A stretch of DNA of 47,496 nt, taken from positions 1 to 47,496 of the forward strand of contig VGWG01000011.1 of assembly GCA_016873675.1 (NCBI GenBank), read 5' to 3'. Under the pieces are notes generated by a model. It saw only the letters and a program-made list of their open reading frames with translations, did no database searches and had not been told where the DNA came from. Below, in pieces: positions 36,655 to 47,496 of the stretch. Both the position numbers and the translations under genes were made by a program. Positions within the stretch are counted from its first letter, which is position 1. Each line of letters starts with the position of its first letter. The DNA is from Lentisphaerota bacterium. GTDB taxonomy: Bacteria > Verrucomicrobiota > Kiritimatiellia > RFP12 > JAAYNR01.

Positions 36655-37662
36655 ATGGCCAACGAGAAACAAAACGCGGATTTGGTGGCAATTGAGCGGT
36701 GTAAGGGTGCCTACGAAAGTATACGGCAGGAGGTGGGAAAGGTCATTGTGGGACAGAAAGACGTGGTGGATGATGTCCTGATGGCCCTGTTCTGCAACGC
36801 GCATATTCTGCTGGTCGGCGTTCCCGGGTTGGCCAAGACGCTGCTGATTGCGACCCTAGGCAAGGTCTTGCAGTTGGATTTCAAACGGGTCCAGTTCACC
36901 CCCGATCTGCTCCCCGGGGACATCACAGGGTCGATCGTGGTGGATGAAATACCGGGAACGGGGCGGCACGAGTTCCGCTTTGTGGAGGGGCCGGTGTTCA
37001 CGAACCTGCTGCTGGCGGACGAAATCAACCGCACGCCGCCGAAGACCCAGGCGGCGCTGCTCCAGGCCATGCAGGAGCGGGAAGTGACCACGGGGCGCGA
37101 GACGCGTCCGTTGCCGCGTCCGTTTCTGGTGATGGCGACGCAGAACCCGCTGGAGCAGGAGGGAACCTACCCGCTGCCCGAGGCGCAGCTTGACCGGTTC
37201 ATGTTCAACACGTTTGTGGATTACCCCAGCAACGCCGAATTGGTGAAAATCGTCCAGCAGACGACAGGCGAGCAGGCGCCAGTGGCTGGCGGCGTGCTGA
37301 CAGGCGAAGAGATCATTGGTATCCAGAACATTGTGCGCCGGATACCGGTCGCCCAGCCGGTGGTGGAGTATGCCGTGCGGCTGAGCGCGGCCTCCCGGCC
37401 GAAGGATCCCTCGGCGCCCGACTTCGTGAAGAAGTATCTCAACTGGGGCAGTGGGCCGCGCGCCGCGCAGTATCTCGTGCTCGGCGCCAAGGCAAACGCC
37501 GTCTTACACGGCAACACGCATGCGTCGATCGAGGATGTGCGGCGTGTGGCCACGAGCGTCTTGCGTCATCGCGTGGCGTTGAACTTCAACGCCATGGCCG
37601 ACAAGCTGACGGATGTGGAGATCGTGGCCCGGTTGCTCAAGGAAGTGCCGGCCGAAGGATGA
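36655..37662 (+). CDS. MoxR-family AAA+ ATPase
   Basis: The 335-residue AAA+ protein of the MoxR clade has IVGQKDVVDDVLMALF, Walker A GVPGLAKT at residues 55-62, and LPGDITGSIV. Walker B is LLLADEINRTPPKTQAALLQAMQE near 120, and FLVMATQNPLEQEGTYPLPEAQLDRF (sensor 1 region, read in parts) follows. MoxR ATPases act as chaperones that help insert cofactors or mature partner proteins, usually together with vWA-domain proteins encoded next door. That is exactly the context here: DUF58 and two vWA membrane proteins follow. AAGGAG precedes the ATG at some distance. It is the first gene after the promoter at 36525-36553. Confidence 0.93.
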   Translation: MANEKQNADLVAIERCKGAYESIRQEVGKVIVGQKDVVDDVLMALFCNAHILLVGVPGLAKTLLIATLGKVLQLDFKRVQFTPDLLPGDITGSIVVDEIPGTGRHEFRFVEGPVFTNLLLADEINRTPPKTQAALLQAMQEREVTTGRETRPLPRPFLVMATQNPLEQEGTYPLPEAQLDRFMFNTFVDYPSNAELVKIVQQTTGEQAPVAGGVLTGEEIIGIQNIVRRIPVAQPVVEYAVRLSAASRPKDPSAPDFVKKYLNWGSGPRAAQYLVLGAKANAVLHGNTHASIEDVRRVATSVLRHRVALNFNAMADKLTDVEIVARLLKEVPAEG

Positions 37663-37668
37663 AGGCGG

Positions 37669-37763
37669 TTTCAGGGTTCAGGAGCCTGCATGGGAACCTG
37701 AACCTGAACCCCTGAATCCGGATTCCGAACCCTGTCTGAACCCCGAACCCCGAACCCTGAACG
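37669..37763. repeat. Degenerate heptamer repeat region (GAACCC[C/T])
   Basis: The 101-base gap between moxR and the DUF58 gene consists almost wholly of TTCAGG/CCTGAA-type units. TTTCAGGGTTCAGG (37669-37682) is followed by its near reverse complement at 37696-37715, so the RNA can fold into a long hairpin. Then come seven-base steps GAACCCC, GAACCCC, GAACCCT, GAAC up to the DUF58 start codon. A 14-base copy of the first unit recurs exactly at 44890-44903. Confidence 0.75.
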
Positions 37764-38681
37764 ATGTCAAACGGGAACAACAGTCTGACGATAGATCCGC
37801 GCCTGCTGGAGCAATTGAAAGGGATCGAGCTGAAATCCCGTTTCTTGGTGCGCGGATTCTACGAGAACCGCCACCGCACCCGGGATTTCGGCGCATCCAA
37901 CGAATTCATCGAGCACAAGGACTACCAGCGGGGCGATGAGATCCGCCGCATCGATTGGCGTGTCTTTGCCCGCACCCGCCGTCTCTACGTCAAGCGCTTC
38001 GAGATGGAAGCCAACATGCGCGTCCACTTCATCCTGGACACGTCCGACTCCATGCGCGTGCCGGCTGAAGGGGGGCGCCCCACCAAGCTGGAGCTTGCCG
38101 CGACCATCACCGGCGCGCTGGCCATGATGGCGGTGTCGCAGCAGGATTCAGCGGGATTGTTTTGCATTGGCGACATGATCGATGAGGCCATTCCCGCGCG
38201 GCAGGGCATGCGGCATCTGGCGTTGCTTTTTCAGCACTTGGGGGTGCCGCGCGGTCAGGGCGGCGGGAAATTTGGAGAGATAGCCTGGACCACCTTGCAG
38301 CAAATCGGGCGGCGGGGGGTCACGTTTGTTCTAACCGATGCGCTGGATCCGCTCGATCCGCTTATTGAAACCTTGAAGGGTCTCATGGTGCGTGAACAGG
38401 ATGTGACCCTGATCCAGGTGCTTGACGAGGCGGAGCTGACGTTCCCGTTCGACAAGATGACCGAGTTCCGTCATCCCGAAACGGGGCGGCGTATCATGGG
38501 TGATCCGCAGGCGCTCCGGGATCGGTATCTCGCGCGAATCACGGCACATGTGGAGAAAGTCCGCCTGTTTTGCATCCAGCACGGCGTGGATTATTTACGC
38601 CTCCATACCGGCGACGATTTGGCCGCCCTGCTCTCGTCGCATTTTGTGCAACGCCTGGTCAGGAGGAATAGCGCATGCTGA
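37764..38681 (+). CDS. DUF58 domain protein with vWA-type metal site
   Basis: The 305-residue soluble protein has the DUF58 core DYQRGDEIRRIDWRVFARTRRLYVKRFE (residues 53-80, read in parts). A MIDAS-like DTSDSM follows at 92-97. The DUF58 family is a vWA relative regularly found next to MoxR. It ends with FCIQHGVDYLRLHTGDDLAALLSSHFVQR, as usual. The ATG follows the heptamer repeat directly and no Shine-Dalgarno is visible, unlike its neighbours; translation may rely on other signals. Its stop overlaps the next ATG by seven bases, so the following BatA-like gene is coupled. The role is probably as partner or substrate adaptor of the MoxR ATPase, by family context. Confidence 0.9.
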   Translation: MSNGNNSLTIDPRLLEQLKGIELKSRFLVRGFYENRHRTRDFGASNEFIEHKDYQRGDEIRRIDWRVFARTRRLYVKRFEMEANMRVHFILDTSDSMRVPAEGGRPTKLELAATITGALAMMAVSQQDSAGLFCIGDMIDEAIPARQGMRHLALLFQHLGVPRGQGGGKFGEIAWTTLQQIGRRGVTFVLTDALDPLDPLIETLKGLMVREQDVTLIQVLDEAELTFPFDKMTEFRHPETGRRIMGDPQALRDRYLARITAHVEKVRLFCIQHGVDYLRLHTGDDLAALLSSHFVQRLVRRNSAC

Positions 38682-40819
38682 ATCCGCTCATGCTCCTAGG
38701 TCTGGCGGCGCTGGGCATTCCGGTGCTGATCCACCTGATCAACCGGCGGCGGATGAAGCCCCGGCAGTTCGCGACGCTTGACTTTCTCGATCAGCAGGAC
38801 GTGGCGAACGCGTTCGCTCCGGTTCCGCGCGACCTGTTACAGCTTCTGTTGCGGCTTCTGCTGCTGACGCTATTTATCCTGCTGATGGTCCGGATGACCG
38901 GACCCAGCCCGACGGTGGGACCGCGCGCGATGGCGATTGTTCTGGACAACTCGATGAGCATGAAACGGCTGACACCCGACGGCCGCCGCTTGGTTGACGT
39001 TCACCGGGAGCGCATCCTCGATCTCATACGCGGCATGAAGCAGGGCGATTTCTTCTCCTTCACGCTGGTGGGCGATCAGGTCTTTGACAGCACCGGGTTC
39101 ACGAGTGATCGCGCGCGGCTCGAACAGGCCGTGACCAACGCGTGGGCGAGCGACGGCGGCGCCCGCAGCCTGATCGCGACGCTGGAAGACAGTTTGCGCG
39201 AACTGCGATCCCGGCGTGCGCCCAACACCGCCCTGATTGTGTTTTCCGATCAGCAGAGCCAAAACTATCGCTCGCAACTCGCCTCCCCGAGCTTGGCGCC
39301 GCTGCTTCGTGGAAGCCGCATCAAGCCGGTTTTCGTGCTCGATCCCCTGACGAATGCACCCAACGTGCAATTGAAGGGCGCGGAGTTCTACCCGGAGCGA
39401 ATCTACCTGGGCGCGAGCGGTAAGGTGACTGCGCGCATGCACAATGCGTCGGAGACGCAGCAGGTGGTGACCGTGTCGCTGAAGAGCGGACCGGTGGCGG
39501 TGGAGACCCGGTCGTGCAACCTGGCCACCGGGGAGACCGCCCACGTAGAACTTCGCCAGTCGTTTGGGTCGCCCAATGACACGGCCTGGTGCGTGAGCCT
39601 CTCGGAGGACGGATTCCTGGCCGACAACGACGCCTATGCCACGGTGCGCATGCGCAGCCGGCGGCAGGTCCTGCTGGTCACCTCGATGCAGTATCCCAAG
39701 CCGGAGGGGCTGACTCTGGGAACCAGCGGTGCGGATCTATTGACCTGCGCGTTGAACCCCGCCGAGGCCACGGGGGAGGCCCGGGGCGAAACGTATATTT
39801 CCGTCAAGCGTGTGCCGATGATGGATCTGGAGCGCCGGGCGCTGTCGATGTACTCGGTGGTCGTGCTCTACGGTCTTGACCAACTCGCCTCGCCCGAGGT
39901 GGTCCAAGACCTGGCGGGCTATGTGCGCCAGGGCGGCGGCCTATACATCATCCCGGATACCACGGTCAACTCCTCGACGTTCAACCGGGAGTTGGCCCCG
40001 TTGTTGTCTGGATTCCAATTGGGGGATCGGCGGGATCCGAAGATCGCCGCGCCTCTCGACACCAACGAGAAAAATGTGGCGGACCCGCTGCTGACCGGGC
40101 TGATTCGCGGCGAATGGGGAACCGTCAACGACATCCGGTTCGCGCGCTATTTTGAGACGCTGGACATCGGCAGCACCCGGGCGGCGTTGAAGACGCAAGA
40201 TGGCGACGTGCTTCTGGCGGTCGCCGAGATGGGGAAAGGGCGGGTGTGCATCCAGACCCACAGTTGGAATGTGGAGGACACCTCCCTACCTCGCAGCCTT
40301 TCCTTCGTTGGCGTCGCGCATGCCGTCGTGGATCACCTGTCGAGTCTGGACGCGGACACGGAAGGATACAGCGGCCCCGATCAGGTTTCGGCCGGGACTT
40401 CCCATCGAATGGGGCTGCCCCAGTTCCGCGGCCTTGGCGGGGATGTCACGCTGGAGGGCCCCCGGTCCTATGCCTTTAAGCTATCGTCGGAGGATGCTTA
40501 CGTGACGGTGAAGGATATTTACGTTGCCGGCGCCTACCGCGCAACCCATCCCGCCAAGACAGCCGCCCGGGACCGGTGGTTGGCGGTGAACCCGTCCACA
40601 GACGAGTCGTCATCCGCGTTCATGAGCTCGGACGAGTTGGCGGGCCTGTGCGGTGTCGGACAGGTGACCGCGACGTCCGACCGGCTCGACGGGCTGTTCC
40701 GTCCCCGCCGCGAGCTGTTCATCCTGTTGTTGACGCTGGTTTTCGTGGCCCTGACGGCCGAGACGGCAGGCACGCTGCTGTCGCGCCAAAAGAAGGAGAC
40801 GCATGGAGCAGGTGCTTAG
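38675..40819 (+). CDS. BatA-like membrane protein with vWA and glutamine-amidotransferase-like domains
   Basis: The 714-residue protein starts with the BatA-type N-terminal region: MLNPLMLLGLAALGIPVLIHL, NRRRMKPRQFATLDFL, and a second membrane segment at 55-73. A vWA domain follows with the MIDAS DNSMSM at 91-96. The middle has beta-sandwich sequence, then a GATase1-like fold (VLLVTSMQYPKPEGL near 330; VVVLYGLDQL and YVRQGGGLYIIPD near 425) without an obvious catalytic Cys-His pair. A last membrane helix near 690 ends it. BatA/vWA proteins usually work at the membrane with MoxR ATPases. It overlaps DUF58 by seven bases and the next gene by 17, so all are translationally coupled. Confidence 0.82.
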   Translation: MLNPLMLLGLAALGIPVLIHLINRRRMKPRQFATLDFLDQQDVANAFAPVPRDLLQLLLRLLLLTLFILLMVRMTGPSPTVGPRAMAIVLDNSMSMKRLTPDGRRLVDVHRERILDLIRGMKQGDFFSFTLVGDQVFDSTGFTSDRARLEQAVTNAWASDGGARSLIATLEDSLRELRSRRAPNTALIVFSDQQSQNYRSQLASPSLAPLLRGSRIKPVFVLDPLTNAPNVQLKGAEFYPERIYLGASGKVTARMHNASETQQVVTVSLKSGPVAVETRSCNLATGETAHVELRQSFGSPNDTAWCVSLSEDGFLADNDAYATVRMRSRRQVLLVTSMQYPKPEGLTLGTSGADLLTCALNPAEATGEARGETYISVKRVPMMDLERRALSMYSVVVLYGLDQLASPEVVQDLAGYVRQGGGLYIIPDTTVNSSTFNRELAPLLSGFQLGDRRDPKIAAPLDTNEKNVADPLLTGLIRGEWGTVNDIRFARYFETLDIGSTRAALKTQDGDVLLAVAEMGKGRVCIQTHSWNVEDTSLPRSLSFVGVAHAVVDHLSSLDADTEGYSGPDQVSAGTSHRMGLPQFRGLGGDVTLEGPRSYAFKLSSEDAYVTVKDIYVAGAYRATHPAKTAARDRWLAVNPSTDESSSAFMSSDELAGLCGVGQVTATSDRLDGLFRPRRELFILLLTLVFVALTAETAGTLLSRQKKETHGAGA

Positions 40820-44872: not shown

Positions 44873-47496
44873 TGAAGAGCGTATTCAGATTTCAGGGTTC
44901 AGGTTTCAGCGGGGGCGCTGTCTCGGTGTCGCCCGATGGAACACGGCATGAGAAACGTGCTTCCCGCTGGGTGGGGAGCGCGTTCGACACAGCGTGCAAC
45001 AGAGCCCTCCACACCATTTCTCAGACCGGGCGCCAGGTCGTCATGCTTGCGTTTTCTGTTCTTGCGTGGTGCTGCTCCAGTCTGGATTCGCACGCGGCGG
45101 CAACCTTCCGGTCGCACATGATTTGGGTGGGAGCGGAACCCCGATTACAAGTGACGGTCGATCCGGGATCGGCCGTGACCCAAACCGTCTGGATTGCCGT
45201 CAAGCCGGTCAACCAGCGCGGCGAGAGTCCCGAGGGCTTTACGACCGGTTGCGCCATAAAGCTGGCAGGGGACGGCAAGTCGGTGACGACGAACTTTCCG
45301 ATATTGAATCCAAAAATTCCGCTGGAACGGCTCTGGAAGGCTCCGGGGCGGTTGGGTAAAGAGGACGTGATGATTCCCGGTGATTACATCCGGGTGACTG
45401 CGCGGGACGATGGGATCGGATTGGCCGGCGAGGTGCTCGTGTACCCCTTCAAGCCGGATTCGCCGCTGCAGTCCTGCACGGTGCGCCTCGCGGGCGGATT
45501 CAGTGACCGCCAGGCGTACTTTGCACTGCACTTTGGTCCGCACAAGCAGGGGATTGAACAGAAGGCCGCCGTCGAGTTCCATCTTCTGGATGCCGAAGGA
45601 AACCCCGTGTCGAGCGGCGATGCCGAGGTCGCCTTGTCCGACACCCAGCCGACTCATTTCGAAAAGGACGTGACGCCCAAGCGCGACATGACCGGCCCCT
45701 ACACAGTCACGTTCACGGTGAACAACGAGACGCTGGGCATGCAGGTGGCCAGCGATGTTCGGTTTCCGTATGCCAACCTCCTGGTGCCGGTGTCCAGCAT
45801 GGAGAGCGACACACTGGCCGACTGGCATCTTCCCGGAACGCCGCTGAGCGAAGGGGCTGCGAGATCGGTGCCCAATATCCTGTTCAGCGTCTACCAGCCG
45901 TTTGATCGCCCTTTCTTCGATGCCGAGGTGAAACACCAGGGCGCCCGGAGCCTTCGAATCGACTACCTGCCGACGGCAACGGCCACCATCGGCAGCAACG
46001 TGCGCCTGCCGGGTCTGCCCACGGCGGCGCGAATCTGGGTCAAGGGGAATAACACCCGCGACCGGCTGGTGATCGAGTGGCGAGATCCCTGCAACTTCAC
46101 CGCTGCGTCCTACCAGCGTTTCATGAACGCTGCGGCCGTGGAGGTCTGCCGCTTGGATTTCTCGGACTGGAAATGTTTCACGGTTCCGGTGCTGGGCAAC
46201 GGCCTGCTCGCGCGCGACAACCGATCCTATATGGCGGGGAATTCGGGCCTGGAGCCCCGGCATCCGATCCAAACTCCTTTTCATTGCGCCGCGTTGCGGG
46301 TGATTCCTGAGCCGCAGGGCAAGGCCGCCCCATCCAACGTCGCGCCGCGAAGCGTCTGGGTTGACGATCTCCTGGTGGAAACGCAGGCGCCCCGGAGCGA
46401 GCGGATGATGCTGGAGCTGCGTGGCGACACACCGGAGAGGCGACTGCAGGCCGACGCGAAGCTGATAGTCTCGGTCGGGAACGGGACGCCCTACGACATC
46501 CGCAACGGACGCATTGCTGTGACATTCCTCGATGGTGCAGGGGAAACCGTACCGGACGCTGACCTGACGGAGGGGCTCGACGTGGGCATGGGCGAGGTGG
46601 TGGTCAAGACCCTGTCGCTGGCGGCGGTCGAGGCGCGGAAGCCGCGCGGACCGGTCACGGCCGTCGTGACCGTCACGGGGCCCGTGGCGGGACAGCGGGT
46701 CCAGGGGCGCTTGGTGTTTAGCCGCCCGACGGGCGCTGGTTTGGTTTGGAATTTTGAGCGCCAGGAGCACTTCAATCCCGTGGCGCCAGCGTGGTATTAC
46801 CAATCGACCTACCCCAAGCATTCGATGGTGCTCTCGGGCGGCAAGTATTACATCAGCCTGCAAGGCGGAAACCTGAACAAGAGGCCTCCGGGAGACAGTA
46901 AGCAGCCCGAGTGGGCGCTGGTCAGCACGCCCGTTGGCGCCGATCCGGTGGCGGGGGGCGCGGACGGCACGGCGCGGTCGCTGCCGTTAACGGTCACAAC
47001 GAATATTCCGGTATCCGTGGTTTTGCATCCAGCCCTGCCCGGGGTTGTCGAAAGCGTCGAGATGCAGGTGTTTGGCGATGGCGTTCCCGTGATGCTGCAG
47101 GCGATTTTTGCGGACAGCGGATCTGCGGAGTTCGACCTGCCGTACCAGCAGCACGCCAGTGAGCCGGTGCGGGTGGATTGGAAGGGATGGAAAGCCTGCC
47201 GTTTCGCCGCGCCTCCAATCCCTCCGGCATACGGATCGTCGGACGGTAAAGGAAATCCGTTCTATGCGCCGCGGTATCCACTGAATCTGACCCTGTTGGC
47301 CTGGACCGAGAACGGGGGGCCTGCTGCGATCCGGGTGGACCAGGTCACGGTTAGCACGCATTTGTCGGCAAAGCAGGAACTGGTCGCCGAACTGGACTAT
47401 CCGGACGAGACGATGCTGCTCGTTCCGGGGCAACCACTGAAGATGACGCTGGGCAGTATTTCAGCGGAGCCGATGTCGGTTGATGCCCGCTTCCGA
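44869..47496 (+). CDS. Large secreted or cell-surface protein (partial, runs off the window)
   Basis: The frame from the ATG at 44869 stays open for 876 codons to the right edge. The first about 58 residues are unlike the rest and contain the TTTCAGGGTTCAGG repeat (residues 8-12). A signal-peptide-like stretch follows: QVVMLAFSVLAWCCSSLDSHA, read in two parts, with probable cleavage after SHA or the next Ala. An in-frame ATG at 45043 would start just before it. The mature part is beta-rich. Around residues 300-420, ARSLRIDYLPTATATIGSNV, RIWVKGNNTRDRLVIEW and RLDFSDWKCFTVPVLG look like a carbohydrate-binding-type jelly-roll. Further sandwich repeats follow. No catalytic motif is recognised. 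It is translationally coupled to the DUF4175-like gene. Confidence 0.8.
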   Translation, partial: MMKSVFRFQGSGFSGGAVSVSPDGTRHEKRASRWVGSAFDTACNRALHTISQTGRQVVMLAFSVLAWCCSSLDSHAAATFRSHMIWVGAEPRLQVTVDPGSAVTQTVWIAVKPVNQRGESPEGFTTGCAIKLAGDGKSVTTNFPILNPKIPLERLWKAPGRLGKEDVMIPGDYIRVTARDDGIGLAGEVLVYPFKPDSPLQSCTVRLAGGFSDRQAYFALHFGPHKQGIEQKAAVEFHLLDAEGNPVSSGDAEVALSDTQPTHFEKDVTPKRDMTGPYTVTFTVNNETLGMQVASDVRFPYANLLVPVSSMESDTLADWHLPGTPLSEGAARSVPNILFSVYQPFDRPFFDAEVKHQGARSLRIDYLPTATATIGSNVRLPGLPTAARIWVKGNNTRDRLVIEWRDPCNFTAASYQRFMNAAAVEVCRLDFSDWKCFTVPVLGNGLLARDNRSYMAGNSGLEPRHPIQTPFHCAALRVIPEPQGKAAPSNVAPRSVWVDDLLVETQAPRSERMMLELRGDTPERRLQADAKLIVSVGNGTPYDIRNGRIAVTFLDGAGETVPDADLTEGLDVGMGEVVVKTLSLAAVEARKPRGPVTAVVTVTGPVAGQRVQGRLVFSRPTGAGLVWNFERQEHFNPVAPAWYYQSTYPKHSMVLSGGKYYISLQGGNLNKRPPGDSKQPEWALVSTPVGADPVAGGADGTARSLPLTVTTNIPVSVVLHPALPGVVESVEMQVFGDGVPVMLQAIFADSGSAEFDLPYQQHASEPVRVDWKGWKACRFAAPPIPPAYGSSDGKGNPFYAPRYPLNLTLLAWTENGGPAAIRVDQVTVSTHLSAKQELVAELDYPDETMLLVPGQPLKMTLGSISAEPMSVDARFR
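44890..44903 (+). repeat. Second copy of the TTCAGGG repeat unit
   Basis: TTTCAGGGTTCAGG is identical to 37669-37682 and is followed by another TTTCAG. It lies inside the first codons of the last gene, encoding FQGSG. Confidence 0.6.

Follow-up and report, generated by a model that had tools for sequence, protein, structure and literature searches.

Heptameric G-rich repeats with the units GGGNATC and GGGGA(C/T)T have been described in Xanthomonas and Nostoc (Rehm et al. 2015, PMC4692102). The GGGTTCA arrays reported here share several features with those repeats as presented in the portions of that report cited here: a 7-nt unit with a G3 tract, a dispersed and mostly intergenic distribution, a G-rich sequence that lies on the non-coding strand before genes and on the coding strand after them, convergent inverted pairs (in Xanthomonas) and a lower frequency between divergent genes. 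The intergenic TAACTGA heptamers of the Beggiatoaceae precede start codons that mostly lack a Shine-Dalgarno sequence (MacGregor 2015, PMC4679880), and the parts of that description used here agree with the GGGTTCA arrays in the presence of heptamers directly before starts, the rarity of Shine-Dalgarno sequences and a patchy occurrence over distant groups. In those same parts the TAACTGA repeats are direct, with one indirect repeat reported, whereas inward pairs are common among GGGTTCA arrays; identity of the two was rejected on a direct reading of the unit at our locus, which is unrelated. A survey of long simple sequence repeats found heptamers to be the most abundant long unit and proposed slippage over the 7-nt contact of the polymerase (Mrazek et al. 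2007, as cited in PMC4679880 and PMC4692102); this survey is general and contains no polarity rule in the portions cited.

The locus lies in contig 11 of a 3.17-Mb assembly (genome G000; 218 contigs, 95.6% complete), and this contig stretch of 47,496 nt, analysed at its full length, is referred to as the window. A run of genes of the MoxR, DUF58 and BatA/VWA types was identified, in which moxR (MoxR family ATPase, 36655..37662, plus strand; Pfam AAA_3, E 5.5e-60) is separated from the DUF58 gene (37764..38681, plus strand; Pfam DUF58, E 3.3e-38) by a gap of 101 nt (37663..37763). Reading of the sequence and an array scan detected a two-unit G-rich array, TTTCAGGGTTCAGG, on the minus strand directly after the moxR stop (37669..37682), a C-rich degenerate run, GGGAACCTGAACCTGAACCCCTGAATCC, of GAACCT/GAACCCCT type on the plus strand (37692..37719), which can pair with the G-rich array, and a C-rich (GAACCCC)n array on the plus strand (37725..37762) whose end, GAACCCCGAACCCCGAACCCTGAAC, stands one base before the DUF58 ATG. 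A second G-rich array was detected on the minus strand at 44884..44911, 11 nt past the stop (44872) of the gene that ends the run. The heptamers of the gap are degenerate versions of GGGTTCA and GGGTTCG, retain the G3 tract and occur in both orientations (GGGTTCA/CCCTGAA). Two-unit 14-mers with up to two mismatches covered 48 of the 101 nt, about half of the gap, while 1,000 dinucleotide shuffles gave a mean coverage of 0.85 and a maximum of 24 (none reaching 48) and none of 4,740 window tiles taken in 10-nt steps had this coverage. The description of this gap in the first-pass annotation as degenerate heptamers in two orientations was thus borne out. The gap contains two worn G-rich heptamer arrays that face inward as a pair, the GGGTTCA unit being read on the strand leading away from each gene.

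Inspection of start contexts agreed that the DUF58 ATG (37764) has no Shine-Dalgarno sequence. The accompanying claim that the neighbouring genes have good sites or overlaps held for moxR (aaggag before 36655), for the gene starting at 38675 (aggagg, overlapping DUF58) and for that at 40803 (aaggag, overlapping) but failed for the fifth gene of the run, where the start is ambiguous (43082 or 42980) and no site was visible. Under a lenient rule and with roughly called starts, Shine-Dalgarno sequences were detected in 503 of 1,215 called genes of five genomes, as compared with 283 of 1,215 when the upstream stretch was read backwards. The absence of such a site is therefore not rare among these genes. 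Where a C-rich array lay close upstream the proportion was 4 of 18 genes, the numbers being small. A sigma-70-like promoter was observed upstream of moxR; no predicted promoter or terminator fell inside the moxR-DUF58 gap, and an Rfam search of 37400-38000 produced no match up to E 1. In the RNA of the gap the G-rich array could pair with the C-rich run in the middle, in keeping with the earlier claim of self-folding, but this fold was not clearly better than those of shuffled sequences, either for the gap (z -1.62, with 10 of 200 shuffles equally good) or for the gap with its flanks (z -0.81, 40 of 200).

A 15-mer search allowing up to two mismatches detected 74 matches (39 + 35) in G000, against 4 (3 + 1) for the reversed pattern, so that the repeat is not unique to this site. 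In the 624 kb of this genome that was read (the window and stretches all chosen for matches; 88% coding according to a home-made caller), intergenic positions accounted for 31 of 38 strict and 39 of 58 looser arrays, which supports the suggestion that such repeats could spread within the genome; four control units in the same 624 kb gave 0 to 1 strict and 8 to 27 looser arrays. Gene calls throughout were made, without annotation, by a home-made codon-usage caller or a greedy longest-ORF caller. Array lengths, judged by coverage, peaked at two to three units. Mismatches were distributed evenly across the positions of the unit, as expected from random mutation, and a heptamer with hypervariable positions (a fixed core and a free tail) was rejected, as 11 same-column pairs were observed where 15.1 were expected. 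The arrays sit between genes inside contigs, with a few touching contig ends in this fragmented assembly, a placement that is not telomeric; the term "telomere-like" describes a likeness of letters only.

The period of 7 was not confined to GGGTTCA. With this unit masked, the values for gaps were 3.03 per thousand in G000, 1.54 in its congener G011, 4.35 in the order-level relative G007 and 6.76 in G225, as compared with shuffled values of 0.19, 0.35, 0.41 and 0.28, respectively; little enrichment was seen in G255 (1.02 versus 0.77), for which only 4.3 kb was available. In G000, the 62.9 kb of gaps contained 52 tandem arrays of period 7 and the 551 kb of coding sequence contained 35. Many differing units were present within one genome, and CTGA/TCAG occurred in 94 of the 159 period-7 arrays of five genomes. 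Enrichment of period 6 exceeded that of period 7 in the gaps of G000 and G011, and 7 is therefore not the sole step. Hexamer arrays of the AATCGT, ACCGAT, AAATCG and ACCCCG types were strongly enriched in the intergenic DNA of the same two genomes.

The orientation of the arrays relative to genes was then compared across genomes. The G-rich strand led away from the nearest gene for 62 of the 76 CTGA-type arrays of the five genomes (62:14) and for 41 of 66 arrays with other units (p 0.06). Successive arrays in one gap faced inward in 23 cases, outward in 4 and the same way in 13, with 5 undecided. All of the G000 stretches and most of the others had been picked for matches, and those of G255 because pairs had been seen in them. 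When G255 was left out, the polarity was 14:3 in convergent gaps, 31:12 in same-direction gaps and a weak 4:3 in divergent gaps (total, 49:18). The analysed rows excluded G294, in which the caller found no genes, six gaps with the 147-bp element described below and arrays not flanked by genes on both sides. Array-bearing gaps were present at 0.32 per kb in the divergent class and at 0.63 to 0.83 per kb in the other classes, a difference that was weak when expressed as the share of gaps (15/128 versus 17/95, 27/216 and 46/231). Similar patterns were detected in 80 listed loci of a named genome collection, with 19 inward, 1 outward and 19 same-way pairs within 400 bp and a nearest-gene polarity of 49 versus 20; here a crude, greedy caller, whose open frames take up 88% of the DNA, placed 78 of 141 arrays outside and 59 inside such frames. 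In 50 loci of a viral collection, pairs were inward in 13 cases, outward in 1 and same-way in 17, and nearest-gene polarity was absent (38 versus 33). In the C-rich units TGA is read toward the gene, and a stop codon was present on some strand in 115 of 159 period-7 units. A three-frame stop signal was nevertheless set aside as the common cause, since the published units GGGAATC and GGGGATT, by inspection, contain no stop yet are reported to have the same polarity.

The family was patchy in an order-level sample of 95 genomes. Matches numbered 634 in G007 (control, 6) and 214 in the congener G011 (control, 3), counts that are partly inflated by a separate multicopy element, and 4 in the same-family genome G005 (control, 7). 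A 22-mer, with one mismatch allowed, was present in 33 of the 387 genomes of a phylum sample and control matches in 5, as read by eye from the table. The 23-mer CCTGAACCCYGAACCCTGAACCC occurred in at least 119 stretches of the named genome collection. By title, the matches listed included Kiritimatiellae, Lentisphaerae, Verrucomicrobia, Planctomycetota, Acidobacteria, Omnitrophota, Bacteroidetes, several Proteobacteria, Oscillochloris, Herpetosiphon and a Methanophagales (ANME-1) archaeon; Herpetosiphon geysericola, Wenzhouxiangella sediminis and Limnohabitans sp. DM1 were non-MAG strain records by title. The 23-mer was also detected in 50 stretches that are viral by collection label only; GTAACTACTCAGGTTCA was detected in 11 stretches of viral contigs, which is about the chance level by a rough estimate. 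Overall, members of the family are dispersed through the genome, lie mostly in intergenic DNA, occur patchily among relatives and show a strand polarity.

Junctions without arrays were observed in relatives. The moxR-DUF58 gap was readable in 2 of 29 homologue loci (L041 and L063). In G007, an in-frame DUF58 ATG lies 10 nt past the MoxR stop with AAGG within this interval and no repeat; the encoded DUF58 protein is 60% identical, a BatA-like gene follows, giving the order MoxR, DUF58, BatA-like, and further ATGs downstream of the first mean that the true start is perhaps slightly later. The array is absent from the one readable orthologous junction, and neither of the two outcomes that would have spoken against the first-pass annotation, a repeat confined to this site or a leader of the same sequence in distant relatives, was observed. 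A second junction, that between ilvB and ilvN (genes named by eye from their translations), was compared in 12 genomes. The gap contained arrays in G000 (103 nt) and G011 (80 nt), with a copy number that differed between these congeners, and no array in the ten other genomes, with a length of 27 nt in G005 and 9 to 31 nt in nine. An array that precedes an EF-P-like gene in G000 was absent from the upstream stretch examined in the four closest homologues. Because short, array-free junctions are found in relatives at both moxR-DUF58 and ilvB-ilvN, the arrays appear to be lineage-specific gap fillers, recent arrivals that lengthened tight junctions. The proposal that the original leader may have been replaced was supported by the single empty-site comparison with G007, and the ilvB-ilvN junction was concordant. 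A long-gap ancestor with a loss in G007 may be the alternative to a gain here, given that this is one comparison. At L063 (G067), a more distant DUF58 homologue, the gap was at least 111 nt long and contained GAGATCA-type heptamers and CCGACTTC-type octamers.

No paper on the GGGTTCA unit was found in the literature searched; the five matches to the literal repeat strings were rodent gene-expression studies by title. The STRR heptamers of cyanobacteria are heptamer tandem repeats with units that probably differ from GGGTTCA. On comparison of the analysed features, the GGGTTCA arrays appear to belong with the Rehm-type G-rich heptamer repeats as a more worn and widely spread form. They are unlike those repeats, as described in the portions cited (PMC4692102), in their unit, in being more degenerate and often shorter than four units (the Rehm class being quadruplex-forming, with a four-unit preference), in their spread over multiple phyla and in the presence of other heptamers without a G3 tract in the same genomes. 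These results extend a poorly understood class, detailed for Xanthomonas and Nostoc, to a unit that spans many phyla and in which the odd strand rule of the class recurs.

The arrays are probably dispersed intergenic simple repeats. Each would originate in a chance seed or a small copied fragment, lengthen through replication slippage by 7 nt at a time, wear down by point mutation and survive where it does little harm. The polarity could arise in part from selection against G-rich leader RNA and against C-rich RNA past stops. At our locus, the array would have added ~90 nt to the distance between the moxR stop and the DUF58 start and put a C/A-rich leader in place of a junction that was short and probably coupled. 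The effect on DUF58 is most likely a modest change in coupling and not a dedicated switch. As arrays lengthen tight operon junctions at both moxR-DUF58 and ilvB-ilvN, their cost or use is directly testable. Slippage alone, however, does not account for the inward pairing or for how one unit came to be seeded at many sites and across many phyla.

The inward pairing, seen in three locus sets, would be accounted for if the arrays were fragments of, or related to, a small mobile element of MITE or REP type that is spread by transposition and of which inward arrays are the inner repeats. We regard this as unlikely, although it is the strongest of the alternatives. MITE and REP elements are inverted, intergenic and multicopy, and one element of the genus carries such heptamers: alignment detected a multicopy, hairpin-ended element of ~147 bp with inward heptamer arrays in G000 and G011. 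Its ends are GAGCCGCTTGCAAAACC...TGCAAGCGCCTC, and it is present at L146:8440-8600 in G011 and on contigs C84, C23, C32, C78, C10, C171 and C112 of G000. With only 40 candidates scored per genome, matches numbered 16 in G000, 71 in G011, 60 in G007, 2 in G012 and 0 in both G005 and G001, many of them partial or one copy counted on both strands; G007 had a single full-length copy with 95% identity. In addition, 5 of 6 TAACTACTC words in the 80 listed loci lay within 13 nt of an array, as compared with 3.6% of bases lying near arrays. Against this, hairpin ends and the TAACTACTC word are both absent from the moxR-DUF58 gap, the spacers of most array pairs look unrelated by eye, and the 147-bp element explains just 6 of 111 array-bearing gaps. 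The sole match to this element in the window (44884-44909) consisted of heptamers alone.

Strand polarity and nearness to gene ends would also be expected if the arrays were selected cis-elements (G-quadruplexes, i-motifs or stem-loops) with a role in transcription or translation, which at this locus would bear on the ratio of MoxR to DUF58. A G3N1-7 quadruplex motif was present in 26 of 73 arrays. At the moxR-DUF58 gap, however, this motif is borderline and requires an 8-nt loop, folding did not exceed chance, arrays are missing at the same junctions in relatives and their occurrence over genomes is patchy, and we consider selection for such elements quite improbable. We hold to be equally doubtful a broader proposal, in which inward G-rich heptamer pairs would be a general punctuation of the gaps of bacteria and some archaea, with lineage-specific units (GGGTTCA, GGGNATC and others), one strand rule and one shared placing process, either a small mobile element or linked to replication, in place of independent slippage.

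Writing of the repeats by a telomerase-like reverse transcriptase of the DRT10 kind, for which the synthesis of tandem-repeat cDNA from an RNA template provides a precedent in the portion of the report cited (PMC12632851), is highly implausible: many different units occur in one genome, and RVT_1 domains numbered one in G000 and one, partial, in G007, with none in the array-bearing genomes G011 and G225 (genomes 81 to 96% complete). Chance low complexity of a single gap, although loose 13-mer matches do arise randomly (4 seen in the window, 0.86 expected), was effectively ruled out by the shuffles of the gap and by the excess of genome-wide matches over the control.

Some small elements were observed beside arrays. 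The sequence TAACTACTC(AGG) adjoins arrays in loci L229, L239 and L268 (an uncultured bacterium, a Desulfobacterales MAG and an ANME-1 archaeon MAG) and may mark one end of a small mobile element; the sole literature match to TAACTACTC words was unrelated by title. A Y1_Tnp search of G000 gave five matches, four of them above the cut-off. A REP-like palindrome near CTGCGGCGCGGCGGGACGCCGCAGCCCTACC was present beside three G000 arrays (C15:38230-38360, C27:26550-26680 and C43:8350-8440).
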